A DNA stretch of 64,000 bases. Source: Hyphomicrobiales bacterium (lineage in GTDB: Bacteria > Pseudomonadota > Alphaproteobacteria > Rhizobiales > Rhizobiaceae). Positions 12,792 to 64,000 of the stretch are shown piece after piece. Numbering within the stretch: position 1 is the stretch's first letter; every line of letters starts with the position of its first letter. Made by a program: the position numbers and the translations under genes. The stretch spans positions 62,001-126,000 of the forward strand of contig UCEU01000014.1 in assembly GCA_900471485.1 (NCBI GenBank). Reading direction: 5' to 3'. The notes beneath the pieces were generated by a model. The model was given only the letters and a program-made list of their open reading frames with translations, did no database searches and was not told where the DNA came from.

Positions 12792-13943
12792 ATGAATATC
12801 AGACGTCGTACCTTCATGGCTGCGGTCGGATTGACCGCGGTGTCGGGGCTTGTCTCGACGAAAAGCGTTCTCGCGGGAGCAGAAGAGCTCCCGCACAAGG
12901 TCGCGGCCGAAATCCCGTGGTTTTGTAACCAGATCGCGGTGACAACCAAGGGCGATATGTTCTTTGGCCTCCCGCGCTATCCAGACTACGACCAGACACC
13001 GTCGCTTGCAAAGCGGGGGGCTGATGGAACGCCAGCGCCGTTTCCTGGGAACGCCTGGAACGAATGGAAGCCGGGCGACGATGGCCGCGACAGCTTCGTC
13101 TATGTGAACTCGATCCACGTCTTCAAGGACGATACGGTCTGGGTGGTGGACCAGGGCGCTCTTCGTGCCGACTCCTATCCTCCCGAGCTTTCCGAACCGC
13201 ACCCCGGCGCGCAGAAGCTTGTGCAACTGCACGAGGAAACCGGCGAGGTGCTCAGGGTACTGCGTTTCGACGACACCATTCTGCCGAAGGGCGCGAAGAT
13301 GAATGACCTGCGCGTCTTCGGCGACCACGTATACGTAACGGATTCCGGACTTGGCGCCCTCATCTATCACAACCTTGAGACGGGGCAGACACTTCGGCGG
13401 ATGTCCGGGTCCCCGCAGATGCAGGCAAAGGTCGACCCGAATCTGCAGCAGGGCAATCACCAGACGCCGAAGATCGACATGATCGAAGTCACCGACGATG
13501 GCGAATGGCTGCTTGCCGCCGCGCCAACTGGCCCCTTCATCAAGTTGAAGACCTCCGCCCTGCGCGACAAGGCGATCTCCGACGACGATCTTGCGAAACA
13601 GGTCCAGGAGTACGCTCCAATCGCTCGAAGTGGCGGGTGTGCGCTCGACACGAACGGCAACCTCTATCTGTCGGAACTTGATAACAAGCGGGTCACGATC
13701 CTCGCTCCGGATGGCCGGACTGCCGTACTGGCCTCGGACGACGAATTCATCAGCCCTGACGGGTCGTTCATCGCCGTCGATCGCAAGCTGTACATCCCGG
13801 TCACGCAGTCTCGTCGAACGAGACTCTTCGGAAACAAGCAGGACATGGTGAAGCGACCGTGGAAGATCTACGCGGTCGAGTTGCCTGAGGAGATCGGGGG
13901 GATCAAACTTGGAAATTCCCTGAACGGCATCAGAGCCGGCTAG
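12792..13943 (+). CDS. Tat-exported MRJP/yellow-family beta-propeller protein
   Basis: A 383-residue secreted protein. Start ATG 12792 follows GCGGAGG. The N-terminus (RRRTFMAAVGL, then a hydrophobic core ending about ALAGA) is a twin-arginine signal, so it is exported folded. The body matches the major royal jelly protein/yellow family: FVYVNSIHVFKDDTVWVVDQG, a later MNDLRVFGDHVYVTDSGLGAL and repeated blade-like segments. Bacterial members are related to SMP-30 lactonases and dopachrome-conversion proteins, and the reaction is not known here. It is divergent from the CapA/ABC operon and shares its control region, so it probably processes the same compound in the periplasm. Confidence 0.85.
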   Translation: MNIRRRTFMAAVGLTAVSGLVSTKSVLAGAEELPHKVAAEIPWFCNQIAVTTKGDMFFGLPRYPDYDQTPSLAKRGADGTPAPFPGNAWNEWKPGDDGRDSFVYVNSIHVFKDDTVWVVDQGALRADSYPPELSEPHPGAQKLVQLHEETGEVLRVLRFDDTILPKGAKMNDLRVFGDHVYVTDSGLGALIYHNLETGQTLRRMSGSPQMQAKVDPNLQQGNHQTPKIDMIEVTDDGEWLLAAAPTGPFIKLKTSALRDKAISDDDLAKQVQEYAPIARSGGCALDTNGNLYLSELDNKRVTILAPDGRTAVLASDDEFISPDGSFIAVDRKLYIPVTQSRRTRLFGNKQDMVKRPWKIYAVELPEEIGGIKLGNSLNGIRAG

Positions 13944-50317: not shown

Positions 50318-50507
50318 CGATCTCACCTTTCTTTTCGTCGTGTGGCCGGCGCGGGAAGCACCTCGGGAGTCCCGAGAATAGGAAACTCCCGGTATCGCGC
50401 ACATTCGAAGTTCTCCTTACGTAGTGGTACGGAAGCTGTGGCCCCGCGCGCGCGGTATAACGCGAGTGCTCCTGCGAGGACGACCGGTCGCGTGTCGGGA
50501 GGGATCG
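50318..50507. promoter_or_regulatory. Divergent promoter region with possible E-site
   Basis: Between the small secreted-protein gene and the membrane-protein gene. TTCTCCTTAC GTAGTGGTAC (50411-50430) is a weak match to the 10-bp direct-repeat sites at 54.1, 59.9 and 60.0 kb; a GC-rich spacer and TATAAC (50456-50461) follow, but the spacing is 25 nt instead of 23. It also contains CTCGGGAGTCCCGAG, an arm-to-arm palindrome at 50381-50395. Confidence 0.35.
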
Positions 50508-51446
50508 ATGGTATCGAATGACGGCGAGAGCCGCGGTCCCGCGCCGGATCGCGACACTGTCCGCGAACAGCTTGACCGCATTCTTCAGAGCGGGGAATTC
50601 CACGCGCCCGATCGCGGGCGGCAGTTCCTGCGCCATGTCGTGGAAGAGGCGCTGCAGGGGCGCGCCGATGCTCTAACCGCCTATGCCATCGGCCAGGCCG
50701 TCTTCGCACGCGGTGCGACCTTCGATGCGCAGAGCGATCCGGTCGTGCGCATCGAAGCCGGGCGGATACGGCGCGCATTGGAGCGTTACTATCTGGTCAG
50801 CGGCGGCAAGGATCCCGTAATCATCACGATTCCCAAGGGGCGCTATGCGCCGAGCTTCGAGTGGCGCGCGCGGACAGGCGCCACGCCGGGCGAGGTTGCG
50901 ACCGTCGGACGGCAGTTTACCCGCGGCGGCGACCGTCCCCTGCGGTATCGCGATCTGCTCGTGCCGGTGGGGGTGCCCGCTATTTTCGGGGCAATCGCGA
51001 TCCTCGCTCTGATCCGGCCGCTCGAAAATTATTTCGGCACCTCGCTGGTGCCGCCTACGGCTGGCACTCAAAGAGCGGTGGCGAGGATAGTCGTCGAGCC
51101 GCTCGGTATCCTCGGCGCACGACCAGGTGCCACGGAGATGGCCCGGGGGCTGAACGATCAACTGATCTCGCGGCTGGCGAAGCTGGACGGGATCGTTGTG
51201 GTCGCGCCTGTCGCTAACGTCTCGACGACACCAATCGCGGCGGTTTTCAACCTGCAGGGCAATATCGCTTTCGGGGAAGACAGTGTGCATGTCCAGGTCC
51301 GTCTGGTGAAAAGCGCGGACGGAACCGTGGTGTGGGCAAAGCGGTTCGATCAGGACGTAGCCGGCAACAAGATGCTCGATGCGCAGGACAGGCTCTGCAC
51401 GGCGATCAGCCGCGAGATTTCCGAGGCCCTGAAAACGGGTGGCTGA
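50508..51446 (+). CDS. Single-pass membrane protein, short paralogue of the 585-aa TPR protein
   Basis: A 312-residue protein. The N-terminal block (residues about 18-115: FHAPDRGRQFLRHVVEEALQ, AQSDPVVRIEAGRIRRALERYY, VIITIPKGRYAPSFEW) is a conserved domain seen in rhizobial proteins often labelled adenylate cyclase or TolB-like. One membrane helix (about 150-170) is followed by a C-terminal TolB/FlgO-like part (RGLNDQLISRLAKLDGIVVVA). It lacks the TPR tail of the convergent gene at 51466. The start is ATG 50508 after GGGAGGG. Function unknown; a DNA- or signal-binding N-domain is possible. Confidence 0.75.
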   Translation: MVSNDGESRGPAPDRDTVREQLDRILQSGEFHAPDRGRQFLRHVVEEALQGRADALTAYAIGQAVFARGATFDAQSDPVVRIEAGRIRRALERYYLVSGGKDPVIITIPKGRYAPSFEWRARTGATPGEVATVGRQFTRGGDRPLRYRDLLVPVGVPAIFGAIAILALIRPLENYFGTSLVPPTAGTQRAVARIVVEPLGILGARPGATEMARGLNDQLISRLAKLDGIVVVAPVANVSTTPIAAVFNLQGNIAFGEDSVHVQVRLVKSADGTVVWAKRFDQDVAGNKMLDAQDRLCTAISREISEALKTGG

Positions 51447-51465: not shown

Positions 51466-53223
51466 TCAGCCGGCTGGACTTGACGGCTGTCCGGCAGCCA
51501 CGCCGAGCGAGCGCAAGCCGCTCAGAAACTGGTCTTGATCCTGCTTGCGCTGGAGACGAAGGCCGATCTCGCGGGGAATGTCCTTCATCAGCGCCGGGGC
51601 GTTGGCGTTCAGCCAGTCGCGCTGCTGCAGGGCCTCGGCAGTCTTGCCCTCGGCGCCGAGGATCGACATCAGCACGAGACGGTGCATCGGATTGTATTGC
51701 AGGTCGGACATGCGCGACCAGAGCTCGGCGGCCTGGAGATTGCCGCGCATCTGGGCGCAGAGCGCCATTCCGACCTCGTAATATCCCTTGGGGCCGGCGT
51801 TCTTGTTCACCGCCGCCGAGATCAGTTCGCAGCCCGACTGCCAGTTGCCGGACATTGCCAGCCGCAGGCCGTATTCTCCGGCAACCTCGGTGTCATTGGC
51901 GTTCTGCGCATAGGCTGCGGCGCCCGCCTTGAGAGCCGTGTCGAGGTCGTTGGCGAAAAAGCTCACCAGCATCACCGCCTGCAGGGCGCGTATGTTGTTG
52001 GGGTCGATCGCGGTTGCGCGTGAGGCGGCGTCGGCGGCCTGTCGCTGGGCATTGGGGGCCGGAGGGCCGCCGAGCTTGTAATGGAACCGCATCTCGTCGA
52101 GATAGATCAGCGAGAGCAGCGCCCAGGAGGTTGCGCTGCGCGGGAAACGGTCCGTCGCCTGCTGCAGGCAATCGCGCGCAGCATTATGGGTGGCGAGATC
52201 CATCGTCCGCCGGTAACTGTAATAGGCGAGCATACAGTCATAGGCTCCACCCTCCTCCCCGGACGGACGGGCGATCTCGTTGGTGTCGCTGACGAAGATC
52301 GCGCCATAGGGCTGGGCAACAGCGATGGCGATATCCTGGCCGATATCCGCCTGGATCTGCAGGATGCTCTTGGCGGAAAGATTGGCGTCGTAATTGTTCG
52401 CCCATATCACGGTGGCGTCGGAGCGGCGCACGAGCCTGGAGATCGCCCGCAGGCGGTCGCCGTCGCGCTGGACATTGCCTTGCAGCGTATAGCCCGTGGC
52501 GCTTCGATGATTTGCCTTGGAGGCGTCGGCCACCACGATGATGTCTTCGAATTTCGCCAGCTGGCCGATCACCTCGTCGCGCAGGCCTTGCGCGATGTCC
52601 GCTGCGTCATTGTCGGAAGCGTCGAACTGGAAGGCGTCGACGACGACGATCGGGTCCGGCGGCAAGGCGGCGGCCTGATTGCCGGAGCTCGCGAGCCGGC
52701 CGAGCAGGCCGGTTGCGATCGCGAAGGAAAGAGCGGCGGCGATGATCAGGACCGCTGCGCCGGCGATGGCGAGACGCAAGACCGGCAAGGGTCTGGAAAT
52801 GCTAATGTCGGGCGATGTATCCACCGTCACCGAACGCGCGTTGCGTGCCGGTTGCGCCTGCGCATATTCGAAATGCGGAACGTAGCCGCCCTTCGGGATG
52901 GTGATGATGACGGCGTCCGCCTGACCGGCCACGAGGTAATAACGCTCAAGCCCCCTTCGGATGCGGCCCGCCTCGATCCTGACGACGGGATCGTTCTGTG
53001 CGTCGAACGAGGTCTCCCTGCCGAAGATCTCGTTGGCGATCGTGAACGCCTTCAAGAATTGGGAACGACCGCAAAGGGTCTCGGTCACCACGAAGCGGAA
53101 GAACTGTCTTCCGCGTTCAGGCGCGTGAAATTCATCACTGGCGAGTATCTTCTCCATCTGCTGGAGAATGTCCTCGCTTGTCGGTTCCTGCCTGCCCGAC
53201 TGCTCAACCCTTGCGATACTCAT
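51466..53223 (-). CDS. Membrane protein with conserved N-domain, TolB-like region and TPR tail
   Basis: A 585-residue protein built like its convergent neighbour: conserved N-domain (FHAPERGRQFFRFVVTETLC, DAQNDPVVRIEAGRIRRGLERYY, VIITIPKGGYVPHFEY), one transmembrane helix about 135-160, TolB/FlgO-like middle (AQGLRDEVIGQLAKFEDIIVVA) and then about 280 residues of TPR-like helical repeats (AIDPNNIRALQAVMLVSFFA). This architecture is common in rhizobia and sometimes annotated adenylate cyclase, but no cyclase domain is present here. The start is ATG 53223 after GAGGGC. The two genes meet tail to tail with 19 bp between stops, which points to an inverted duplication. Confidence 0.78.
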   Translation of the reverse strand: MSIARVEQSGRQEPTSEDILQQMEKILASDEFHAPERGRQFFRFVVTETLCGRSQFLKAFTIANEIFGRETSFDAQNDPVVRIEAGRIRRGLERYYLVAGQADAVIITIPKGGYVPHFEYAQAQPARNARSVTVDTSPDISISRPLPVLRLAIAGAAVLIIAAALSFAIATGLLGRLASSGNQAAALPPDPIVVVDAFQFDASDNDAADIAQGLRDEVIGQLAKFEDIIVVADASKANHRSATGYTLQGNVQRDGDRLRAISRLVRRSDATVIWANNYDANLSAKSILQIQADIGQDIAIAVAQPYGAIFVSDTNEIARPSGEEGGAYDCMLAYYSYRRTMDLATHNAARDCLQQATDRFPRSATSWALLSLIYLDEMRFHYKLGGPPAPNAQRQAADAASRATAIDPNNIRALQAVMLVSFFANDLDTALKAGAAAYAQNANDTEVAGEYGLRLAMSGNWQSGCELISAAVNKNAGPKGYYEVGMALCAQMRGNLQAAELWSRMSDLQYNPMHRLVLMSILGAEGKTAEALQQRDWLNANAPALMKDIPREIGLRLQRKQDQDQFLSGLRSLGVAAGQPSSPAG

Positions 53224-53319: not shown

Positions 53320-53985
53320 TTACGGTAGCCAGGCCCTTGCTGATGCGGCGGCCGAACCGCCGGGCAAGGCGGCGGTCACCGTTCCCGTCGCCATCACCAT
53401 CCGCATCAGTTCCGCGAGGTTTCGGGCCTCCATCTTGGCCATGACGTTGGCGCGGTGAACCTCCACCGTGCGCGCGCTGATGCCTAGGTTGAAGGCGATC
53501 ATCTTGTTCTGCAGACCCTCGAGAACCGCGCTCAGCACCTGATGTTCGCGATGGGTGAGCTGCCGCAGCCGGTTGGTCACTCTTTCGGTGGTCACGGGCG
53601 TCGGCCCGCAGGAGATGATTTCGACGGCGGCGCGGTTTATGGCGGCGATCAGGATCTTGTCGTCGCATGGTCGCTTGATGAAATCCGAGGCACCCGCCTT
53701 CATGGCGCGTACCGCCATCTCCACATCGCCATCGCCGCTTATCAGGATCGCGGGGATGTCGACGTTCAGCGCCCGCAGCTGCTCCAGCAGCTCGATGCCG
53801 TCCATGCGCGACAGTCTCACATCCACGATCAGGCATGCTCTTCCGGACAGCGGCAGCTGGTCGAGAAACGCCGAGACCGTCTTGTGCGCGCGGACCGCGA
53901 AGCCGGCGGATACCAGGAGCAGCGTCAGCGAACGCCTGGGCGTCTCCTCGTCATCGATGATATGAACGGTAAGGTCATTCGTCAT
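53320..53985 (-). CDS. FixJ/NarL-type response regulator
   Basis: A 221-residue two-component regulator. The receiver has acidic residues 11-13, phosphoacceptor Asp55 (CLIVDVRLSRMDG), and Lys104 in the switch loop (DFIKRPCDD). A LuxR-type HTH follows at about 145-205 (LTHREHQVLSAVLEGLQNKMIAFNLGISARTVEVHRANVMAKM). No histidine kinase gene is visible in the window. The start is ATG 53985 after GAAGGAGAG. Its promoter holds site A (54081-54100), the best copy of the repeat motif, which makes it the prime candidate for the regulator of the neighbouring operons. Confidence 0.92.
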   Translation of the reverse strand: MTNDLTVHIIDDEETPRRSLTLLLVSAGFAVRAHKTVSAFLDQLPLSGRACLIVDVRLSRMDGIELLEQLRALNVDIPAILISGDGDVEMAVRAMKAGASDFIKRPCDDKILIAAINRAAVEIISCGPTPVTTERVTNRLRQLTHREHQVLSAVLEGLQNKMIAFNLGISARTVEVHRANVMAKMEARNLAELMRMVMATGTVTAALPGGSAAASARAWLP

Positions 53986-54051: not shown

Positions 54052-54100
54052 ACGCTAACATGGCTTTTCGCGCGCGGGCTGTAGTATCGTGTAACATCTG
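54052..54100 (-). promoter_or_regulatory. Site A: direct-repeat motif and -10 of the response-regulator gene
   Basis: Read on the minus strand: CAGATGTTAC ACGATACTAC (54100-54081), two 10-bp half-sites one helical turn apart, then exactly 23 nt, then TAGCGT (54057-54052) as -10 candidate. No -35 consensus is present, so an activator bound to the repeats is expected. The half-sites share the pattern NN(G/T)ATGNTAC with sites B, C and D. Confidence 0.6.
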
Positions 54101-54165
54101 TAGGTGCGGTGGCGCGGAAAAATTTTTACCGATCGCGGCGCGGAACAATCCAATGCCTCCGGGAC

Positions 54166-54186
54166 TTCGTATGAGGGTCATACGAA
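54166..54186. promoter_or_regulatory. Perfect 21-bp palindrome upstream of the 81-aa gene
   Basis: Arms TTCGTATGA (54166-54174) and TCATACGAA (54178-54186) are exact reverse complements around GGG. It ends 14 bp before the ATG of the small gene and overlaps its leader, so it could be an operator or an RNA hairpin hiding the ribosome site. Its GTATGA core echoes the half-sites of the nearby repeats. Confidence 0.6.
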
Positions 54187-54200
54187 TGCGGAGAGGAAAG

Positions 54201-54446
54201 ATGATGCGAGAACACGGACGGCGGAGGCTGATGCTCAGACTTCCCGACATCCGGCAGGTTCTGGCCGAGGAGCCTACGGAAGCACTCAATGAAATGTTCG
54301 AATCCTACGCGCTGGCGGCGGATGCGCTGGATCGCTTCAGGCAGCAGATGCCGAAGCCGGAGGCGCTGATCGCGGAGTATTCGCAGCTCTGCCGCGACAT
54401 CGAGCAAGAGGTGATGATCTATTGTTCCGGGCAGGTCGTGCGCTGA
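54201..54446 (+). CDS. Small helical protein, 81 aa, unknown
   Basis: An 81-residue, probably all-helical cytoplasmic protein (LPDIRQVLAEEPTEALNEMF, LAADALDRFRQQMPKPEALI, LCRDIEQEVMIYC). I do not recognise the family. The start ATG 54201 follows GAGAGGAAAG; a longer frame to 54042 runs through the control region and is rejected. It is divergent from the response regulator, convergent with the AI-2E gene, and preceded by the palindrome at 54166. It may be a small adaptor of the same stress system. Confidence 0.65.
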   Translation: MMREHGRRRLMLRLPDIRQVLAEEPTEALNEMFESYALAADALDRFRQQMPKPEALIAEYSQLCRDIEQEVMIYCSGQVVR

Positions 54447-54478
54447 TCCGGCGCGCGCCATGATAACCCTTCGCGTGT

Positions 54479-55588
54479 TCAGGTCGGGGTCTGTGTCGGG
54501 GTCTGCGGTTGCCAGGCCCAGGCGCGCAGCAGCTCGTAGAAGACGCTGAGCACGACCGGTCCGAGGAAGAGGCCGAGCAGACCGTAGGACAGCGTGCCGC
54601 CGATGACGCCGATCAGGATCACGACCATCGGCGTCGACAGGCCCCGTGCCATCAGGATCGGTTTCAGCACATTGTCGACCAGCATCACCGGCACCGCGAC
54701 GATCGTGAAGATCAGCGCGGTGGACGCCGGCCAGGTGAACCAGCCCCAGATGATCGCCGGGACGAGCACGAGGCCGGGGCCGAGCTGTATGACGCAGAGG
54801 ATGAAGACGACGAAGGTCAGCGCGCCGCGCGCCGGAATGTCGAAGAGGGCGAAGCAGAGGCCACAGAGCAGCGTCTGAAGAAACGCGACGCCGATTACGC
54901 CGCGCGAGACGTTGCGCACCGTCATTCCCGCCAGTCTGGCGAAGCCGACACCCTTGTCCCCGGCCACGCGCTTGGCGAGCACCTGGATGGTGGCGGCGAG
55001 CCGTTCGGACATGGTCAGAAAGAAGCCTGACAGGATGACCGAGGCGACGAAGCTCAGGACGCCGCCGCCGATCGAGGCGAGCTTGGCGATGATCACGCCC
55101 GCCACATGCAGGATCGGCTGCTGGAACTTGATGATGGTCGAGGCAAGGTCGCTGGTGACCTGGTTCCAGACGGTGAAGATCTTTTCGCCGACGAAGGGCC
55201 AGTCGCGGACGCTGGGCGGGGCAGGCGGCAGCGTGAAGCTTTCGGACTTCAGCTTGCCGACCAGGATATCCACGGCATCGGCGAAGTTGACCGCGACCAG
55301 TGCCAGCGGCGCGATGATCAGTACCAGGCAGGCGATGACGATGACGGTGGCGGCGATGACCGGCCGGTTGCCGATGAGGCGAGACAGCGCGTCATACATC
55401 GGGAAAAGGGCCACCGCCAGGATGGCCGACCAGGCGACGATCAGCGCGAAGGGGGCGATGAGGAGCAGGGTCCAATAGGTGAAGAGCGCGATGATGCCCA
55501 GCCGGACGAGATCGCTGACGCGCGCCTCGATCGAGATCTGTCCGCTGTCCCTGGGCGCCTGCGCGCTATCGTTCACCTGCTCCATCAC
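54479..55588 (-). CDS. AI-2E family transporter (TqsA/PerM type)
   Basis: A 369-residue inner-membrane protein with about eight hydrophobic segments and the central periplasmic/cytoplasmic loop region around LVGKLKSESFTLPPAPP. The C-terminal LGPVVLSVFYELLRAW and the GGTLSYGLLGLFLGP glycine pattern are typical. The family includes AI-2 exporters and Na+/H+ antiporters, so the substrate is open. Last gene of the minus-strand operon that starts at yiaW. The start is ATG 55588, with in-frame ATG 55585 equally possible. Confidence 0.88.
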   Translation of the reverse strand: MMEQVNDSAQAPRDSGQISIEARVSDLVRLGIIALFTYWTLLLIAPFALIVAWSAILAVALFPMYDALSRLIGNRPVIAATVIVIACLVLIIAPLALVAVNFADAVDILVGKLKSESFTLPPAPPSVRDWPFVGEKIFTVWNQVTSDLASTIIKFQQPILHVAGVIIAKLASIGGGVLSFVASVILSGFFLTMSERLAATIQVLAKRVAGDKGVGFARLAGMTVRNVSRGVIGVAFLQTLLCGLCFALFDIPARGALTFVVFILCVIQLGPGLVLVPAIIWGWFTWPASTALIFTIVAVPVMLVDNVLKPILMARGLSTPMVVILIGVIGGTLSYGLLGLFLGPVVLSVFYELLRAWAWQPQTPTQTPT

Positions 55589-55624
55589 CGCGTCCCCTCG
55601 CGCATGTCGTCGTTCAGCCCGTGC

Positions 55625-56470
55625 TCAGGGTACGGTATCCGGCACCACGTGGCGGAGGCTGCGGTCCTCCATGAAGCCCGACGGCTTCTTCTGGCGCTTG
55701 CCGAGATCGGGCGCGTCGAACTTCACGCGCTCGTAGGGGATGGACTGCAGGATGTGCGAGATGCAGTTGATCCGGGCGCGCTTCTTGTCGTCCGAGGGGA
55801 CGATCCACCAGGGGGCGTGGTTGCTGTCGGTCATCCTGAGCATCTCGTCATAGGCGCGCGTGTAATCCCACCAGCGCTGGTAGGATTCGACGTCCATCGG
55901 GCTCAGCTTCCACTGCCGCACCGGATCGTCGATGCGGCGCCGGAAGCGGCGTTCCTGCTCTTCCTCGCTCACGGTCAGGAAGTATTTGAGCAGCGTCACG
56001 CCGCTCTCGACGATAGCCGCCTCGAAGCGCGGCGCGAGTTCTAGGAAGCGCTGCACCTTCTTTTCGCTGCTGAAGCCCATGACGCGATCGACGCCGGCGC
56101 GGTTGTACCAGCTGCGGTCGAAGATCACGACCTCGCCGGCGGCCGGCAGGTAGTTGATGTAGCGCTGCATGTAGATCTGCGACTTCTCGCGCTCGGTCGG
56201 GGCGGGCAGCGCGATGACGCGGAAGACGCGCGGGCTCACCTTCTCGGTGATGCGCTTGATCATGCCGCCCTTGCCGGCTGCGTCGCGGCCCTCGAAGATG
56301 ATGACGATGCGGGCGCCGGATTTCTTCACCCAGGCCTGGAGATGGGCGAGCTCCACCTGCAGGCGGCCGATCTCCTTCTCATAGTCCCATGACTTCTTTT
56401 TCTTCTTGCCGGCCTTGCCGTTCGCCGATGGCTCCGGGTCGTTGCCCTTGGTTTCCAGTATCTCGTCCAT
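55625..56470 (-). CDS. ppk2: Polyphosphate kinase 2
   Basis: A 281-residue class I PPK2, which phosphorylates NDPs with polyphosphate. Walker A GRDAAGKGG is at 61-69, the Walker B/lid segment FDRSWYNRAGVDRVMGF near 117-133, and the family's C-terminal SDDKKRARINCISHIL is intact. The N-terminus (about 28 residues) is Lys-rich (AGKKKKKSWDY). It lies between sulP and the AI-2E gene, 18 bp behind sulP. PPK2 genes often belong to general stress or phosphate regulons. Confidence 0.94.
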   Translation of the reverse strand: MDEILETKGNDPEPSANGKAGKKKKKSWDYEKEIGRLQVELAHLQAWVKKSGARIVIIFEGRDAAGKGGMIKRITEKVSPRVFRVIALPAPTEREKSQIYMQRYINYLPAAGEVVIFDRSWYNRAGVDRVMGFSSEKKVQRFLELAPRFEAAIVESGVTLLKYFLTVSEEEQERRFRRRIDDPVRQWKLSPMDVESYQRWWDYTRAYDEMLRMTDSNHAPWWIVPSDDKKRARINCISHILQSIPYERVKFDAPDLGKRQKKPSGFMEDRSLRHVVPDTVP

Positions 56471-56488
56471 GGTTCTCCCTCCGTGTTT

Positions 56489-58204
56489 TCAAACGGTACT
56501 GCCTGCCGATGCATTGCCTGTCTGGTCGAAGTTGCCGATCAGCGCGCGCAGGGCTTCCTCCCTGCCGTTGAAGATGTTGTCCGGGCCGATCGCCTTGATG
56601 ACGCCTGCGCGGCCAAGAATGCCGCGGCTCTCCTCGCTGAGGTCGGCGATGGCGAATGTGATGTTGCGCCTGGCAAGGATCTCCGCCACCGTCTCGAGCG
56701 CGGTGGCGCCAGTGCTGTCGATATGGGTGATGGCGCTGGCATCGAGCACCAGACAGCGGGTTTCCGCGGGAAGGCTTTTGGCGACCGAGGTCAGGCGGGT
56801 CCTGATGTAATCGGCGTTGTAGAAGAGGATGCTGCCCTGCACGGCGAAGACGGCGGCGCCATCGACCGGCCGCGCTTCGGGGTGGCGGGCAAGGTCGAAG
56901 AAGCCGTGCCGGCCTTCGATGCGGCCGAGCAGGCCGTCGCGCGGAAACATCGTCTGGCGCAGCAGGTAGACCAGTGTTGCGGCCACCGCGACGATGACGC
57001 CGTTGAGCACGCCGAAGCTGATGGCGCCCCACATGGCGATCAGTGCGAAGATGAACTCCATACGGCTGATGCGCCAGATCTTGCGCAGCTCGTGGACGTC
57101 GATGAGGCTGATCGCCGCCATGGCGAGGATGGCGGCCAGCGCCGGAATGGGAAGGATGCGCAGCGCGCTGTGCAGGAAGACGAGGGCCGCGATCAGCGTT
57201 GCCGCGGAGACGAGGCCGGCCGCCTGCGAGACGCCGCCGGTCGACAGGTTGATCGCCGTGCGGGAATCCGAAACGCTGATCGGAAACGAGCCGAACAGCC
57301 CCGGCGCGATATTGGCGGCGCCTAGGCCGATGAGCTCCTGGTTCGCATCGACCTCTTCGCCGGTGCGCGAGCCGAAGCTGCGGGCCGCGACGATGCCTGC
57401 GCCGAAGCTCACCAGGAAGATCGCGGCCGAGCCGAGTATGATCTTGTCGAGCGGCATCTGGTGAATGGCTGGCAGCGAGAAGCTCGGCAGGCCGCTCGGG
57501 ATATCGCCGACGACGGCGATGCCGCGCCCCTGAAAATCGAAGATGGCCGAGAGCACGACCGAGAGGACGACGACCAGCACCGGACCCGGAACCTTGAGCT
57601 TGAAGGCCCGGACGAGCCACAGCAGCGCGAACATGAAAAGGCCGAGGAGCAGCGAGGGCCAGTGGATCAGGCCGCTCTTGCCGGCGATCTCGACCAGCGG
57701 CGGGACCAATCCGTCGGATTCGATCTTGACGCCGGTGAAGCGGCCGATCTGGCCGACGAGGATCGACAGCGACACGCCGGCGAAGAAGCCGACGAGGATG
57801 GGGCGCGAGAGGAAGCTTGCGAGAACGCCGAGACGCAGCAGCTTGGCGGCGATGCAGCAGATGCCGACGCCGAGAGCCAGTGCTGCGGCGATGGCGACCC
57901 TATCGACCGGCATGCCGGCGGGGTAGGCGGCGACGATCGTTCCCATCGCCGCGGCAAGCACCGTCATGGTGGCCGCATCCGGGCCGACGACCAGGAGGCG
58001 TGAGGGTCCGAAGATCGCGTAGGCGATCGGCGCGACGATGCTGGCGTAGATGCCCGTTTCCGGCGGAAGGCCGGCAATGGCGGGATAGGCGATGGCGCTC
58101 GGCAGACCGACGGCCGCAATCGACAGCCCGGCCGGGATATCGCTCTTCAGCCAATCCCTGCTGAAACCGCTCAGGCCTCGCAACATCGGAAGACTGCCTA
58201 TCAC
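56489..58204 (-). CDS. SulP-family anion transporter with STAS domain
   Basis: A 571-residue transporter: a UraA-like membrane domain of about 12-14 helices (IPAGLSIAAVGLPSAIAYPAIAG, GPDAATMTVLAAAMG, SRTAINLSTGGVSQAAGLVSA) and a C-terminal STAS domain from about residue 455 (AVFAVQGSILFYNADYIRTRL, LVLDASAITHIDSTGATALETV) with the usual DST loop. Relatives carry sulfate, bicarbonate or chloride; the anion cannot be told. It starts at GTG or ATG around 58204 and lies 82 bp behind yiaV. Middle gene of the operon. Confidence 0.92.
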   Translation of the reverse strand: MIGSLPMLRGLSGFSRDWLKSDIPAGLSIAAVGLPSAIAYPAIAGLPPETGIYASIVAPIAYAIFGPSRLLVVGPDAATMTVLAAAMGTIVAAYPAGMPVDRVAIAAALALGVGICCIAAKLLRLGVLASFLSRPILVGFFAGVSLSILVGQIGRFTGVKIESDGLVPPLVEIAGKSGLIHWPSLLLGLFMFALLWLVRAFKLKVPGPVLVVVLSVVLSAIFDFQGRGIAVVGDIPSGLPSFSLPAIHQMPLDKIILGSAAIFLVSFGAGIVAARSFGSRTGEEVDANQELIGLGAANIAPGLFGSFPISVSDSRTAINLSTGGVSQAAGLVSAATLIAALVFLHSALRILPIPALAAILAMAAISLIDVHELRKIWRISRMEFIFALIAMWGAISFGVLNGVIVAVAATLVYLLRQTMFPRDGLLGRIEGRHGFFDLARHPEARPVDGAAVFAVQGSILFYNADYIRTRLTSVAKSLPAETRCLVLDASAITHIDSTGATALETVAEILARRNITFAIADLSEESRGILGRAGVIKAIGPDNIFNGREEALRALIGNFDQTGNASAGSTV

Positions 58205-58286
58205 CGCGGGCTCCTTATCACTTCGTCATCGATATTCCCGAATTGACGCCGGCCCCGCTCGCAAGAACGGGACCGGCCGTCTCCCC

Positions 58287-59444
58287 TCAGTGTTCCAGGA
58301 ACACGTAGTTCATCCAGCTGCTCATTCGCAGCAGCACCTTTCTCAACACCGCGACGTGGTGCCAGTGGTGGGTGTAGACCGCGACCTCGGCGACGACACC
58401 GCCGGGTAGCTGGTAGCCCTCGGTGCTCTCGAGAAGCTCGATGCTGGCGATCGTCTGGCCGGGTGCGGCGCGCTCGGGCGATTGCGGATCGATCAGCGCG
58501 CCCGAGGGCTGCAGCTGGCCTTGCGCCATCACGTCGATGATCCCGTTCACGCGGGCCTTGAAGATCTTGCCGGGGACCGCCTTGAAGGCCACTTCGGCAT
58601 CGTCGCCGACGTTGACGCGCTGCAGCGAGTTCTGGATGAAGGCGGCGCCGAGCATCTGGTCCTGGCTGTCGATGAAGACCATGACCGGCCGCAGCGGAAG
58701 CGGGTTCGCCATCATGCCCGGGCGCAGGAAGACCTGGGTGACGTAGCCGTCGCTGGGAGCGCGGACCGTCGTCTGATCGAGCTCGTATTGCGCATTGGCG
58801 AGCTCGGCCTGCAGGCGGGCGACGGTGGGGTTGGTGCCGTTGATTTCCGATTCATAGGCCAGCTTTGCCTGCGTGGCCTGGGCGCGGGCGGTATCGACCG
58901 CGGCCTCGGCCGTGAGGTAGATGCCCCTGCGGTTTTCGACCTCGAGTTCGGAGTAGACGGCGCCGCGGCCGCTCGACTTCGAGTTTTCGTTGGACGCCTG
59001 GAACTTCTCGAAGGCCTGCAACGAGCGGTCCCTGGAGGCTTCGGCGCCGGTAACGGCCGCGTTGGCGGCGTCGAGCGCGGCTTTCAACTGCAGCACCGTC
59101 TGCTTGGCTTCAGCCAGCGCTGCCGTCTTCTGGTCGACGGTGAACTGATAGGGGCGCGGATCGATGCGGAAGAGAACATCGCCCTTCTTCAGCGGCGCGT
59201 TCGGCGTGACCGGCACCTCGACCACCTGGCCGCCGACCGTCGGGATGACGGGCGCCGAGGTGAAGTAGATGCGGGCGTCGCTGGTGTAGGGATGATTGTA
59301 GCTCATCAGCAGCAACAGCGTCCCGATCAGGAAGATGCCGCCGAGAACCGATGTCGCCAGCGTCCACTGGTTCACCGGGATGCGGAAGATCTTGAAGATC
59401 GCGTAGCAGAGCGCGGCATAGGTGAGGATGAGAAGCAGGTCCAT
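58287..59444 (-). CDS. yiaV: HlyD-family membrane fusion protein (YiaV type)
   Basis: A 385-residue periplasmic adaptor anchored by two N-terminal hydrophobic stretches (LLLILTYAALCYAIF, LATSVLGGIFLIGTLLLLM). A biotinyl-lipoyl half-motif (PVIPTVGGQVVEVPVTPNAPLKKGDVLFRIDP), a long coiled-coil hairpin and the second lipoyl half (RAPSDGYVTQVFLRPGMM) follow. E. coli yiaV and yiaW have the same order and overlap. No inner-membrane pump partner is encoded beside it, so its transport role is unknown. Confidence 0.88.
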   Translation of the reverse strand: MDLLLILTYAALCYAIFKIFRIPVNQWTLATSVLGGIFLIGTLLLLMSYNHPYTSDARIYFTSAPVIPTVGGQVVEVPVTPNAPLKKGDVLFRIDPRPYQFTVDQKTAALAEAKQTVLQLKAALDAANAAVTGAEASRDRSLQAFEKFQASNENSKSSGRGAVYSELEVENRRGIYLTAEAAVDTARAQATQAKLAYESEINGTNPTVARLQAELANAQYELDQTTVRAPSDGYVTQVFLRPGMMANPLPLRPVMVFIDSQDQMLGAAFIQNSLQRVNVGDDAEVAFKAVPGKIFKARVNGIIDVMAQGQLQPSGALIDPQSPERAAPGQTIASIELLESTEGYQLPGGVVAEVAVYTHHWHHVAVLRKVLLRMSSWMNYVFLEH

Positions 59445-59779
59445 CAGGCGTTTTCCTTCTCCGATGCCTCAAGCTCGGCGATGCGCGCATGCAGGCGTGC
59501 GATTTCAGCGTTGGCTTCCTGCGCCGGCGACAGCTTGCCGTCGCTGCGGATGCCCCAGCCGCGATCCTCGCGGTAGATCGTTGCCCAGATGAACAGGAAC
59601 GGCCAGATGGCGTGCAGCGTGAAGAGGCTGACCCAACCGGCGACGTGGATCGCATCCTGATGCGGGTGATTGCGCGCTTTTGCCATCAGGTGCGGGATAT
59701 CGTGTATGGCGATGACGGCGTAGAACAGCGTGATCACCATGAAGAACAGCACGCCCAGTGCAAAATAGTCGAGAAACAC
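59444..59779 (-). CDS. yiaW: DUF3302 small membrane protein (YiaW type)
   Basis: A 111-residue inner-membrane protein with two or three hydrophobic helices (FLDYFALGVLFFMVITLFYAV, VAGWVSLFTLHAIWPFLFIWATIY) and a polar C-terminal coiled stretch (EANAEIARLHARIAELEASE). It starts at GTG 59779 after AAAGGAAGAG; a longer frame to 59893 runs into site B. Its stop overlaps the yiaV start (TGATG). First gene of the five-gene operon. Confidence 0.85.
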   Translation of the reverse strand: MFLDYFALGVLFFMVITLFYAVIAIHDIPHLMAKARNHPHQDAIHVAGWVSLFTLHAIWPFLFIWATIYREDRGWGIRSDGKLSPAQEANAEIARLHARIAELEASEKENA

Positions 59780-59847
59780 GGCTCTTCCTTTCGGCTCGGC
59801 GATATGCGGCCGAACGCGGGAGCGACGGCCGTGACCAGGACGAAAAA

Positions 59848-59896
59848 AGACTAGACCCGCGCGCCGCAGGATGCCCGTAGCATCACGTAACATCTA
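59848..59896 (-). promoter_or_regulatory. Site B: direct-repeat motif and -10 of the yiaW operon
   Basis: On the minus strand TAGATGTTAC GTGATGCTAC (59896-59877), 23 nt (GC-rich), then TAGTCT (59853-59848). Over 24 positions that include the flanks it matches site A at 19. The half-sites agree with each other at 8 of 10 positions when aligned as GATGTTACGT and GATGCTACGG. Start codon is 97 nt from the motif, against 95 nt for site A. Confidence 0.6.
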
Positions 59897-59988
59897 TCGG
59901 ATCATGCGGACCGGCCGGCTTGCGGCGTGCCAACTCCGATGAAAGGACTTCACGATATCGCGAGCGGAATCGCAGCGTCCCCAGGGTC

Positions 59989-60037
59989 TGTAGCTTCCTG
60001 TATCTTACACCGGCGCGGGCGGGCGCTCGGATATAAT
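59989..60037 (+). promoter_or_regulatory. Site C: direct-repeat motif and -10 of the 104-aa gene
   Basis: On the plus strand TGTAGCTTCC TGTATCTTAC (59989-60008), 23 nt of GC-rich spacer, then a consensus TATAAT (60032-60037). The repeats match each other at 8 of 10 positions when read as CTGTAGCTTC and CTGTATCTTA. No -35 box is seen at the usual distance, which supports activator dependence. Confidence 0.6.
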
Positions 60038-60074
60038 GGCTCTCGTATACTTGGCATGAACGGCTGAGGTGACC

Positions 60075-60389
60075 ATGAGCTGGAGAGGAAGCAGTCCGTC
60101 GCAAATGTCCGCCCTGTCGGTGGCGGAGGCGCATTTCCCTGATCAGATCGGCAAGATGCGGCGGCTGTACGACACCAGCGACGCGTTTCGCGGCATGTGC
60201 GATGATCTCGCGGCGGCCGAGCAGACTCTCATCTGTCTCGGCGATCTCCCGGGCCGCGAGCGCGAGCAGCGCCGCAGGGAGTACAGGAGCCTCGTCGAAG
60301 ATCTCGTCATCGAGATCGGCGAGGCCATTGCGCGATCCAATGTCGTGATGCTGCGCCGGTTCGATATCATCAGGCAGAAGGCTCCGTAA
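60075..60389 (+). CDS. Small helical protein, 104 aa, unknown
   Basis: A 104-residue soluble protein, probably a helical hairpin or bundle (AHFPDQIGKMRRLYDTSDAF, CDDLAAAEQTLICLGDLPGR, EYRSLVEDLVIEIGEAIA). No family recognised; it has the general look of the 81-residue protein at 54201 and of short rhizobial stress proteins. Start ATG 60075 follows TGAGGTGACC; an in-frame GTG at 60069 is possible. It is the sole gene behind promoter C and is convergent with the CYTH gene. Confidence 0.75.
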   Translation: MSWRGSSPSQMSALSVAEAHFPDQIGKMRRLYDTSDAFRGMCDDLAAAEQTLICLGDLPGREREQRRREYRSLVEDLVIEIGEAIARSNVVMLRRFDIIRQKAP

Positions 60390-60429
60390 GGTCGCACGCC
60401 GGAAACACGCGGCGAAAATCGGACGGGCT

Positions 60430-60900
60430 TCAGGAAAGCGGCTGCTGGCTCATGGCCATCGCGCGGTTGGAATATCGCTTGTCGCCGGTGATCTCATGGC
60501 CCAGCCAGGCGGGCAGGGCGGGACGGGCATCCTCGCGATCCATCTCGATCTCGGCGACGACCAATCCCCTATAAGCCCCGGCGAACACGTCCACGTCCCA
60601 CTTGTTGCCCTTGTGGCGAACGATGTAGCGGGTCTTTTCGATGACGCGGCTGCCTGCGTGCAGGATCAGTTCCCGGGCTTCGTCGGCCGGGATCGCATAT
60701 TCGTATTCCTGCTTCGCAAGGCCCGCCGTGTGGATCTTGATCGTCAGCAGTCCGGCGCGGCGGTCGATCAGCCGCACCCGGATCGAGGTCTTCTCATCCC
60801 GGGACAGGTAGGCTTGCTGCAGGAAGTGCGAACCGCCTGCGTTGCTGCGCCACCTGTCATCCCTGACCAGGAATTTTCGCTCGATCTCGATCGCTTTCAC
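60430..60900 (-). CDS. CYTH-domain protein (inorganic triphosphatase type)
   Basis: A 156-residue CYTH/triphosphate-tunnel metalloenzyme. The diagnostic EIERKF near the N-terminus is the ExExK motif, and alternating charged strands follow (SIRVRLIDRRAGLLTIKIH, EYEYAIPADEARELI, WDVDVFAGAYRGLVVAEIEMD). Length and motif fit the short bacterial NeuTTM group that hydrolyses inorganic tripolyphosphate, which fits the ppk2 gene 4 kb away. It lies 32 bp behind the 153-residue gene on the same strand and shares its promoter. Confidence 0.92.
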   Translation of the reverse strand: MKAIEIERKFLVRDDRWRSNAGGSHFLQQAYLSRDEKTSIRVRLIDRRAGLLTIKIHTAGLAKQEYEYAIPADEARELILHAGSRVIEKTRYIVRHKGNKWDVDVFAGAYRGLVVAEIEMDREDARPALPAWLGHEITGDKRYSNRAMAMSQQPLS

Positions 60901-60932
60901 ACGGGCATGTCCCTTGTTTCACGCGGCGGGCG

Positions 60933-61394
60933 TCAATCGACCGGCGGTTCCCAGGTCAGGAAGAGGCCGACGTCGCCGGGAATGCCCTCGGGAAAGTTGA
61001 TGATCAGTGCCTTGAGGCCATAGCCCTGCGGCTTTGCCAGCTGCTCGAAGAGGTCGAAGATTTCCTTCGCCTTTCCCTGCAGGGTCTTCTGCCAGCCCGG
61101 CAGGCTGTTGTTGATGGCACGCCCGCCATCCTCGCAGAAGCTCGAGGGGAAGCTGTAGATCATCGCCTCGTACTTGCCATCCGCCGCCGCCTTCATGACG
61201 AGGCGCTTGATCATGGCGCGTTCGTTTTCGCTGATGTGCTCGCGGAAGAAGTCCTCCACGAACTCGGCGTGTTTCTTGGCCTCGCGCGCCTTGACCTTTT
61301 CGTCGCGCTCCATTTCCGCCATCTGGAGCTCAAGGGCTTTCTTGCGCAGGTCCTCGGCGCTGGCCATCGGATTGGGCACGGATGTCGCTGTCAT
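60933..61394 (-). CDS. Conserved hypothetical protein, 153 aa
   Basis: A 153-residue protein: an N-terminal charged helix (LRKKALELQMAEMERDEKVKAR, coiled-coil-like) followed by a compact domain (YEAMIYSFPSSFCEDGGRAI, GWQKTLQGKAKEIFDLFEQL, YGLKALIINFPEGIPGDVGLFLTWEPP). No known family; cytoplasmic. The start is ATG 61394 after CCTGGAGGAA; longer frames lie antisense to the upstream gene. It heads a two-gene unit with the CYTH gene and has site D at its promoter. Confidence 0.75.
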   Translation of the reverse strand: MTATSVPNPMASAEDLRKKALELQMAEMERDEKVKAREAKKHAEFVEDFFREHISENERAMIKRLVMKAAADGKYEAMIYSFPSSFCEDGGRAINNSLPGWQKTLQGKAKEIFDLFEQLAKPQGYGLKALIINFPEGIPGDVGLFLTWEPPVD

Positions 61395-61429
61395 GTCGAA
61401 TTCCTCCAGGCTCCTTGATCGTGGCCGTG

Positions 61430-61498
61430 ATGATAGGGCCTTTGGAAGCGGGAAGGCAGTATCATACCGGGCGCAAGGGGTATGATACGGTATGTTAC
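61430..61498 (-). promoter_or_regulatory. Site D: half-site cluster and -10 of the 153-aa/CYTH unit
   Basis: On the minus strand GGTATGATAC (61468-61459) is followed after exactly 23 nt by TATCAT (61435-61430), the spacing of sites A-C. Upstream, facing the other way, are two tandem half-sites, GGTATGATAC and GGTATGTTAC, on the plus strand (61479-61498). The outer and inner copies form a perfect 10-bp inverted repeat. Thus three half-sites lie in 40 bp. Confidence 0.6.
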
Positions 61499-61531: not shown

Positions 61532-64000
61532 TCAGGCACCCGAAGGGAGAGCGGAAAGGCTCGCCAGCGTCTTCGACGTCCACAGCGCCGCTCCCTGGTG
61601 GCGGGCGACTTCGAGCGATTGCAGGAAGGAGGCGCGGGCGCTGAGGCCGGATGGGTCGAGACGGGCGTTGATCTCGCCCTGCAGGCGCAGCAGCTCGGCG
61701 GTGAAGTAGTTCTCGCCGGTATGGGCAACGAGGTCGAGCGCGGCGGAGACGGTCACCGTCGCCTGCACCAGGTCGTCCATGGCGATGTAGGCGCCGGCGA
61801 GCAGCGCGAGGTAGCAGGTCTTGTCGATTTCCTGGTCGCCGAGGTTCTCGCAGGTCTTGCGCATCTTCTCCAGCGCCTCGCGATCCCGCTCCGCCTTCAC
61901 CGTGGTCCAGGCCTGGAAGAAGGAGGCGACGTTGAGCCACATGCGAAAGCCGTTTTCCGCCGCAAGTGCCGAGAGTTCGTCGAGCTTTTCGCGCAGCGGC
62001 CGGTGCTCGTCGCGGATCGCGTGCAGGACGCAGCAATTGCCGAGGCAGGCGGCGAGCCGGTAGACGGAGTGGCGCCGCGCATCCTTCTCGGCGGCGAGGT
62101 AGAGTTCCATGGCGCCGGCCTCGTCGCCCATGATCTGCAGCGCCCAGGACAGATAGAGCATGCTCATGCTGGGGAAGTCGCTGCCGATCTCGTCGGCGCG
62201 ATCGAGATGCTTCAACGCCCGCTCGAGATAGTCCTTCGCCTGGGTGAATTGCCCCTGGCAGAAGAGGCACATGCCCTTGAACTGCATGCCGAGCACCAGC
62301 GCCCTCAGGCTGTTGCGCGCCGTACCGATATCGAGCAACTGGTCGGCGGCCCATTCGGCATCGGCGAAACGGGCGGAATTGAAGGCGATGCCGAAGAGGC
62401 CGTCCAGGGCGCGGATCGGCGCCTCGATATCGCCCAGCGTTTCGCTGAGCCGCATGACATTGCGATAGGCGGCGCTTCCCTCCGCCGTGACGTAGCCGAA
62501 GGTGGCGTAGAGCACGTCGCCGCGCTCCAGTTCCAGCCGCAGCTGCATCAGGTCGCGCTTGTCGGAGACCGGCAATTTCGCCAGGCACTCGAGACCGCTG
62601 GCGAACATGTTGGCGGCTTCGACCTTGGCCCAGGTCTTGGCGGTTGCGAGGCCGGCGGCAAGCCAGCAATCGGCTGCGCGTTCGAAGAGCTCGGCTTCGG
62701 CGAAGTGCTGGGCGAGCACTTCGGGATGCTCGGCGGCCTGCCGGGGATAGAGGCGTTCGATGGCATGGGCGACCTGGGCGTGAAGCTCCCGCGAGCGCTC
62801 GCGCAGCAGCGTTTCGCGCGCTGCGTCCTGTAAAAGCGCATGGGCAAAGGCGTAACGGCGGCCGCCGGTCTCCTGCAGCGGTGCGATCAGTCCGGCTTCG
62901 GTCAGGCGATCGAGGATGGGCACGAGCGCAAGCGGCGTCAGGCCGCAGAGATCGGCCACCAGCAGGAGATCGAACTCGCGGCCGACGACGGCAGCCACCT
63001 GGGCGATGGTCTTGCCCGGGCCGATCTTGTCGAGGCGCGAGAGCAGGGAGGACTGGATGGAACTCGGCAGCCCGATCGCTGGCGACTGTGCATCTCCCGG
63101 CGCGGCGTCGCTGTCGAGGAAGGCGCGCGTGAGCTCCTCGACATAGAGCGGCACGCCCTCGCTCTTTTCGAGCAGTTGCGCCCTTGCCTCGGGAGGAAGG
63201 CTCTGGTCGGCCGCCAGGTTGCGCACCAGTGCCTCGGTTTCGCTTTCGTCGAGGCGCGCAAGGCGGAGCGCATGGAGATCACGATCGTCGCGCGGCATCC
63301 AGGCTTGATGTTCGCGGGTGGTGATCAGGATCAGCATCGGAGAGGCGGGCGCCTCGGCGACGAGTGCCTGCAGCACGTCGCGCGAGGAGGGGTCGATCCA
63401 GTGTTCGTCCTCGACGATCAGAAGCAGCGGAGCCTCGCCAGCGATGTGGCGCAGCCAGTCGATCAGGATGCGCCGCGAAAGATGGCGCTGGCGCGAGGGC
63501 ACGAGGTTCGGCATCGGGTAGCGGGGCTGCTCGATGCCGAGGAGTTCGGCGAAGGTGGGCAGTGAATCGGAGATGGCGATGTCGCTCAGCGAAAGAATGG
63601 CTTCGAGCTTTGCCAGCGCCGTCTCCGGCGGATCGGAGAGGTCGATGCCGGCATGGCGCTTCATCAGCGTCAGGAACGGGAAGAGTGGGCTGTTGGCGTA
63701 GGCGCCCGCGCATTGCAGGGTCATCTGGTTGCATGGGCCAAGGCGGCTTTGCACCTCGTGGATCAGCCTCGACTTGCCGATGCCGGGCTCACCGACGATG
63801 ACGGCCGCCCGACCTCTCGTATCCGTGTTCATCTGCCGCCACAGACCGACGAGCGCGTCGATCTCCTGACGGCGGCCGACGAGTTCGGTCAGCCGCAGCC
63901 GCCGGGAGAAGCGGTTTTCCACCAGCTTCGGCGCGTCCGCCCGCCAGACATGGACATCGGCCGGGAAGCCCTTGGGGCGGCGCATGCCGAAGTCGGTGAA
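61532..64000 (-). CDS. C-terminal part of a cyclase-associated AAA ATPase/TPR protein
   Basis: Open to the right window edge; 822 residues visible. The first residues (RPKGFPADVHVWRAD) look like the end of a class III adenylate/guanylate cyclase domain, where a lysine-glycine turn precedes the linker. Then comes an AAA_16 ATPase (LTELVGRRQEIDALVGLW, Walker A VGEPGIGKS, Walker B LLLIVEDEHWID) and about 400 residues of TPR-like helical repeats (AKTWAKVEAANMFASGLECL, GQFTQAKDYLERALKHLDRA). Such multidomain cyclases are numerous in rhizobia; the ligand is unknown. Whether the cyclase domain is intact lies outside the window. Confidence 0.85.
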   Translation of the reverse strand, partial: FTDFGMRRPKGFPADVHVWRADAPKLVENRFSRRLRLTELVGRRQEIDALVGLWRQMNTDTRGRAAVIVGEPGIGKSRLIHEVQSRLGPCNQMTLQCAGAYANSPLFPFLTLMKRHAGIDLSDPPETALAKLEAILSLSDIAISDSLPTFAELLGIEQPRYPMPNLVPSRQRHLSRRILIDWLRHIAGEAPLLLIVEDEHWIDPSSRDVLQALVAEAPASPMLILITTREHQAWMPRDDRDLHALRLARLDESETEALVRNLAADQSLPPEARAQLLEKSEGVPLYVEELTRAFLDSDAAPGDAQSPAIGLPSSIQSSLLSRLDKIGPGKTIAQVAAVVGREFDLLLVADLCGLTPLALVPILDRLTEAGLIAPLQETGGRRYAFAHALLQDAARETLLRERSRELHAQVAHAIERLYPRQAAEHPEVLAQHFAEAELFERAADCWLAAGLATAKTWAKVEAANMFASGLECLAKLPVSDKRDLMQLRLELERGDVLYATFGYVTAEGSAAYRNVMRLSETLGDIEAPIRALDGLFGIAFNSARFADAEWAADQLLDIGTARNSLRALVLGMQFKGMCLFCQGQFTQAKDYLERALKHLDRADEIGSDFPSMSMLYLSWALQIMGDEAGAMELYLAAEKDARRHSVYRLAACLGNCCVLHAIRDEHRPLREKLDELSALAAENGFRMWLNVASFFQAWTTVKAERDREALEKMRKTCENLGDQEIDKTCYLALLAGAYIAMDDLVQATVTVSAALDLVAHTGENYFTAELLRLQGEINARLDPSGLSARASFLQSLEVARHQGAALWTSKTLASLSALPSGA

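Follow-up and report, generated by a model that had tools for sequence, protein, structure and literature searches.

A 64,000-nucleotide (nt) stretch of a Hyphomicrobiales bacterium (Rhizobiaceae; GenBank assembly GCA_900471485.1, contig UCEU01000014.1, positions 62,001 to 126,000), here called the window, contains four sites, A to D, in which half-sites with a 10-bp period end exactly 23 nt before a -10-like hexamer. We propose that these are the operators of one regulon and that they are most likely read by a CadC/ToxR-like, membrane-anchored protein of a family that we number 0, encoded at 51466-53223 or by a close paralogue, a reading to which we give a probability of roughly 0.73. An earlier note on this DNA had named the FixJ-like response regulator encoded next to it as the activator, and this assignment is probably wrong, judging from gene and operator distributions in relatives. 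We also consider it fairly probable, if less so, that family 0 represents an undescribed branch of membrane-anchored regulators that lack a receiver, read a 10-bp-period operator 23 nt from the -10 through a winged-helix domain without a Pfam entry, and run, in Rhizobium and at least one other bacterial family, a stress regulon that covers polyphosphate, anions, mechanosensitive channels and carbon reserves and has the response regulator among its targets.

Operator geometry and conservation

Operator A (54081-54100, minus strand) consists of two half-sites 10 bp apart, CAGATGTTACACGATACTAC (read 54100-54081), and lies 23 nt from TAGCGT (54052-54057, minus). Operator B (59877-59896, minus) is built in the same way, TAGATGTTACGTGATGCTAC (read 59896-59877), 23 nt from TAGTCT (59848-59853, minus), and operator C (59989-60008, plus), TGTAGCTTCCTGTATCTTAC, is followed at 23 nt by TATAAT (60032-60037, plus). 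Operator D, again on the minus strand, combines a proximal half-site (61459-61468), GGTATGATAC (read 61468-61459), 23 nt from TATCAT (61430-61435, minus), with a distal pair (61479-61498), CGTAACATAC-CGTATCATAC (read 61498-61479). Direct reading of the letters found all four sites where the earlier note had placed them, each time with a gap of 23 nt from the final C of the proximal half-site to a TANNNT hexamer, and the open reading frames and Pfam matches agree with the transcription units it had described as facing them. The half-sites that it reported are real, but NNKATNNTAC describes them better than its NNKATGNTAC, and the distal half of operator C, which it had also assigned to the latter pattern, has the form GTANNNTC.

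Without mismatches, ATGNTACNNKATRNTAC occurs three times in the 5.83-Mb genome, all in the window (A, B and the distal pair of D), a count that is not independent support given that the pattern was derived from the sites themselves; with up to one mismatch there are six genome matches, against three for the reversed pattern. When the full layout was required (KANNNTAC twice at a 10-bp distance, then 23 nt and TANNNT; the strict grammar below), A and B were the sole matches in the window, and 600 Markov-randomised loci of ~4.7 kb gave none. The single half-site, at up to one mismatch, is not enriched in the window (168 matches, 158 expected). Further members in the same genome were sought by pattern scans allowing up to three mismatches, which returned A, B and two matches at three mismatches for the A/B pattern (reversed control, one) and C plus one match at three mismatches for the C pattern (reversed control, one). 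We claim no further regulon members in this genome.

The independent support for the promoters is their conservation in relatives. Twenty loci were fetched by response-regulator similarity, with the gap playing no part in the selection, and all 21 exact-core sites, found in 14 of these loci, have TANNNT at exactly 23 nt. Site C is kept ahead of the 104-amino-acid (aa) gene in 10 of the 10 loci read, with the 23-nt gap leading to TANNNT in nine and to TATATA in the tenth (own copy included in both counts); its core in relatives is an inverted copy of the A/B core. Site D precedes the 153-aa gene with the 23-nt gap in 20 of 20 loci read (own copy included), these being the loci returned out of the 38 of 60 genomes that match the gene; 19 of the 20 have three half-sites, and in five the distal pair is a perfect inverted repeat. 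The sequence flanking the conserved sites has diverged among relatives. The exact extended A/B site is present in 66 stretches of named genomes, 51 of them Rhizobium, and an order-wide scan of 397 genomes gave five with a match and none for the reversed control. The motif is thus kept, gap included, before related genes in sister genomes at the A/B, C and D loci.

Family 0 as the candidate reader

The proposed regulator is a 585-aa protein (51466-53223, minus, ATG at 53223). We called same-genus genomes motif-bearing if they hold at least one A/B-type match with no more than one mismatch, and motif-free if they hold none. Family 0 is present at 51% identity or more in 37/37 motif-bearing and 0/23 motif-free genomes, the lowest score in the former being 584 bits and the highest in the latter 386 bits; several motif-free genomes do hold more distant family 0 genes.

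Going by the sequences, stronger evidence for family 0 than this co-occurrence is the linkage seen at distant paralogues. We read 16 further loci with family 0 genes of 39-44% identity to the nearest member of the set. Eleven were picked by gene similarity alone, and seven of them (L256, L257, L263, L264, L265, L269 and L271, from genomes G011 (twice), G026, G029, G063, G071 and G077) show, within ~60 nt behind the family 0 gene, a tandem operator of 10-bp period with TANNNT 23 nt on. No close response-regulator orthologue was found in these six genomes, and response-regulator matches inside the 16 loci do not exceed 35%. Among the five loci picked for a weak motif match, four have the site directly behind a family 0 gene (in one case a fragment of 188 aa) and the fifth, L261, has it elsewhere in the cluster, ahead of a DUF900 gene. 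Where it was seen, the gene after the paralogue operator usually encodes a DUF900 hydrolase or a DUF2092 protein. The only match of the order-wide scan outside the bacterial family, G451, has its site ~40 bp after a 43% match to family 0 residues 191-583 and ahead of a PPK2 gene. The strict grammar is found in 6 of 30 family 0 loci with 1.5-kb flanks, a scan in which the site of kinase-bearing operons falls beyond the flank.

The 585-aa protein is ordered as a winged-helix-like N-terminal domain, a transmembrane segment, an alpha/beta part and TPR-like helices. Hydropathy gives a single transmembrane segment (peak at 151-169) between the DNA-binding-like and C-terminal parts; a full-length model has a helix at 156-173, of low confidence there, and with its N-terminal part also of low confidence it was used only for the order of elements. 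A separate AlphaFold2 model of the N-terminal domain (predicted local distance difference test score 82) contains helices 36-50, 59-67 and 79-98 and then a short pair of beta strands, which is the winged-helix order, and one more helix (16-28) in front. Helix 79-98, invariant at 14 of 20 positions among 20 aligned family 0 copies (distant paralogues not included), would be the putative recognition helix. In favour of an OmpR/PhoB-like fold, the top 17 rows of VIA-align for this domain are OmpR/PhoB-type DNA-binding domains, a labelling that in part we presume (PrrA, Z 8.1; PhoB on pho box DNA, 7.3; CpxR, 7.0).

Several observations weigh against this assignment. The N-terminal domain has no Pfam or NCBIfam match, its model has no counterpart of the N-terminal beta sheet of CadC, and Foldseek returned no significant match for it (best E 0.59). 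VIA-align only re-ranks Foldseek candidates, and by its own notes a Z near 8 is middling. The 153-aa gene tracks the motif nearly as well as family 0 does (36/37, plus two extra), and since the genes form one island, co-occurrence alone is no proof of a family 0 role. G011 and G063 have the 153-aa gene and no A/B-type site within one mismatch; both carry paralogue operators. Four of the 11 paralogue loci picked by gene similarity (L266, L267, L268 and L270) are without an operator, no next gene was seen in the L256 stretch, and the family 0 N-terminal domain of G451 lies outside the stretch read. Pooled over all loci, TANNNT stands at 23 nt in 45 of 48 distinct exact-core sites and not in the other three, in a count biased by the fetching of part of the loci with the 23-nt pattern; at most four have TANNNT at any other offset from 5 to 49. 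Operator D looks palindromic in some relatives, unlike A and B. Finally, there are several family 0 genes per genome, each of them a candidate reader.

A shorter family 0 protein of 312 aa (50508-51446, plus), with one hydrophobic segment at 152-170 and another, less marked, near 230, is encoded beside the long one. Ahead of its gene, at 50405-50445 (plus), stands a degenerate pair, CTTAC-GTAGTGGTAC, with TATAAC 25 nt on, possibly a decayed fifth site to judge by its letters. Besides the site behind its family 0 gene, L269 has another tandem operator behind the DUF900 gene, at 2093 (minus), 23 nt from TAGTCT.

The response regulator and other rival readers

The response regulator (53320-53985, minus) combines a receiver with a LuxR-type helix-turn-helix, as in FixJ (Pfam Response_reg and GerE). 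It is 49.5% identical to FixJ of S. meliloti 1021 and scores 231.8 bits, below the NCBIfam FixJ equivalog cut-off of 255. The family 0 gene begins only 97 nt behind it, and the two therefore probably form one operon. Kinases of this clade in sister genomes are FixL homologues that lack, in 12 of 12, the N-terminal part and the segment aligned with the haem region; both are kept in the kinases of five other loci (L052-L056). We take the haem-ligand histidine of FixL to lie in the missing segment. No kinase orthologue was found in the genome of the window (best match, 31% identity). A true FixLJ system was rejected on these grounds.

It is, in our estimate, unlikely that this regulator reads all four operators and turns on the other units as well as its own gene. 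In its favour, operator A lies ahead of its gene, in sister genomes a site lies ahead of the kinase-regulator operon, and all 25 same-genus genomes with a close orthologue (at least 57% identity) have sites, with none among the 17 motif-free genomes tested (six further motif-free genomes stood outside the test; Fisher 7e-5 for regulator versus motif in the first 37 genomes). FixJ sites, in the portion of PMC4999443 consulted, share GTA/TAC letters (GTAMGTAG and TAAGTAATTTCCCTTA). The S. meliloti fixK promoter has GTGATCTAAC after the FixJ site, and a LuxR-type dimer could be expected at an inverted repeat such as that in D. However, no close intact orthologue was found in 12 of the 37 motif-bearing genomes, including G007 (among the 12, G003 is only 82% complete and G083 has a fragment), and the operator grammar recurs at distant family 0 loci in genomes where no close orthologue was found. 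Of the earlier note's regulon, conservation supports promoters that share an operator placed as in class II activation, one copy of it before the response-regulator gene; the activator it named is not the best reading in the light of these two observations. In the G007 locus (L106) neither the kinase gene nor the response-regulator gene is at its usual position, and at 13202 (plus) an exact operator core remains ahead of the family 0 gene, with no TANNNT at 23 nt.

Another DNA-binding protein, such as an FxkR-like regulator or a different FixJ-type paralogue, is an improbable reader. FxkR of rhizobia binds GTTACA-N4-GTTACA, with the same period as our operators, according to the part of PMC7888657 that we consulted. 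This K-box resembles GTTAC-N5-CTAC in B, and the genome of the window is rich in response regulators, with 43 matches to the FixJ-like protein and 64 to FxkR9. Against it, the K-box of R. johnstonii fixK9a lies at -77 to -62 instead of about -55 to -36, and the best FxkR9 match in this genome reaches 45%, which is still compatible with a diverged FxkR; any such reader leaves the linkage of the grammar to family 0 genes unexplained. FxkR and its K-box had been our first idea, from the 10-bp period, and were dropped because of the position, the sequence and a best match of 45%; GTTACA-N4-GTTACA is not found 62 nt before the start at A to D, with starts placed from the -10. A chance alignment of half-sites and TA-rich hexamers would fit the missing enrichment of the single half-site in the window, but we give it next to no credence in view of the spacing conserved across many genomes and the absence of the strict grammar from the 600 randomised loci.

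Target genes, mechanism and known systems

Operator B faces a yiaW-like gene (DUF3302; 59444-59779, with a probable GTG start at 59779, downstream of the promoter), followed on the minus strand by genes for a yiaV-like HlyD family protein (58287-59444), a SulP anion transporter with a STAS domain (56489-58204), polyphosphate kinase 2 (PPK2; 55625-56470) and an AI-2E family transporter (54479-55588). Operator C faces the 104-aa gene (60075-60389, plus; our family 13, function unknown). Operator D faces the 153-aa gene (60933-61394, minus), matched in 38/60 same-genus genomes with its own included, and a CYTH domain gene by Pfam (60430-60900, minus), which probably form one unit. An 817-aa AAA_16/TPR protein gene (61532-63985, minus) lies upstream of D on the same strand, which places D between the stop codon of that gene and the 153-aa gene. 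The small proteins beside A (54201-54446, plus) and C (60075-60389, plus) look alike by eye and may be paralogues; neither has a convincing Pfam or NCBIfam family match.

In relatives, the units behind the sites are the operon of kinase, response regulator and family 0; yiaW-yiaV-SulP-PPK2-AI-2E, or SulP-PPK2-AI-2E alone; a DUF900 hydrolase with an MscS channel; a 2-hydroxyacid dehydrogenase with lactate permease or glycogen phosphorylase; and unnamed genes. Two loci (L089 at 10878 and L100 at 10794, both minus) have the site TACGTGATGTTAC with a 23-nt gap ahead of a 103-105-aa gene, whose product in L089 has several cysteines and no Pfam match. A sister plasmid island holds arginine deiminase pathway genes, ornithine and lysine decarboxylases and a calcium/proton exchanger (L182), and another a universal stress protein and CbpM-type chaperone genes (L181); none of these genes was seen to have an operator. 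Such content suggests an acid or energy stress island. The stress role proposed in the earlier note thus keeps some ground, in that the functions look stress-like, and its low-oxygen variant is weakened because the paired kinases lack the FixL haem-region segment and the window's genome yielded no kinase orthologue.

In the mechanism that we propose, the cytoplasmic winged-helix-like domain of the 51466-53223 protein, or of a close paralogue such as that of 50508-51446, would bind NNKATNNTAC half-sites 10 bp apart. With a start ~7 nt after the hexamer, the operator would cover about -55 to -36 and take the place of the -35 box, and paired domains would help RNA polymerase to start at the TANNNT 23 nt downstream, as in class II activation without a -35 box; D would offer a third half-site two turns further up. 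The alpha/beta and TPR part, presumably periplasmic, would receive an envelope signal, with envelope, acid, osmotic or energy stress as candidates, in a one-component system. Through operator A the operon of the response regulator and family 0 would control itself.

A literature search of one library of papers, judged by titles and the start of abstracts, brought up no description that we recognised of this regulon or regulator, and we found no described common control of PPK2, SulP, YiaV/YiaW, MscS, DUF900 and the small proteins. A genus-wide promoter set gains an operator code of exact geometry, together with a regulator that can be tested. If the proposed reading is true, a TPR-bearing, membrane-anchored branch is added to the ToxR/CadC kind in Alphaproteobacteria, and the window would be a case of a neighbouring response regulator mistaken for the activator.

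Among known systems, FixLJ of Sinorhizobium and Bradyrhizobium shares a FixJ-like regulator in the operon and a FixL-like kinase partner in sister genomes; it differs in that our regulator falls under the equivalog cut-off, the kinases lack the N-terminal part and haem-aligned segment, and no fixK gene was seen behind the sites read. The hFixL-FxkR-FixK K-box system of R. etli and R. leguminosarum has a 10-bp-period repeat with TAC half-sites as well, and differs in spacer, flanking letters, position relative to the start and targets, with the best FxkR9 match here at 45%. We take FxkR to be of the OmpR type, and its repeat of the same period counts in favour of family 0 as well. Like the sites described here, those of PhoB/OmpR/CpxR-type activators repeat in tandem every 10-11 bp or so and lie close to the -35 region, and the predicted DNA-binding fold of family 0 may be like theirs, whereas family 0 has no receiver domain and is predicted to be membrane-anchored. 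ToxR reportedly reads a direct repeat, going by the title of a cited work. CadC has an OmpR-type DNA-binding domain with an N-terminal sheet, closest to PhoB among DNA-bound structures, and prefers AT-rich DNA upstream of cadBA (both from the part of PMC5430869 consulted). Like E. coli CadC and ToxR-like proteins, family 0 has a predicted N-terminal winged-helix-like domain, one transmembrane segment and a C-terminal part, and its gene often lies beside a target operon. It differs from CadC in the predicted helix that replaces the N-terminal beta sheet, in the missing Pfam match, in its TPR-like C-terminal part and in an operator made of a 10-bp repeat with a fixed 23-nt gap. The membrane-anchored one-component regulator is a known kind, and it is the domain branch, the operator code and the regulon that appear to be new.

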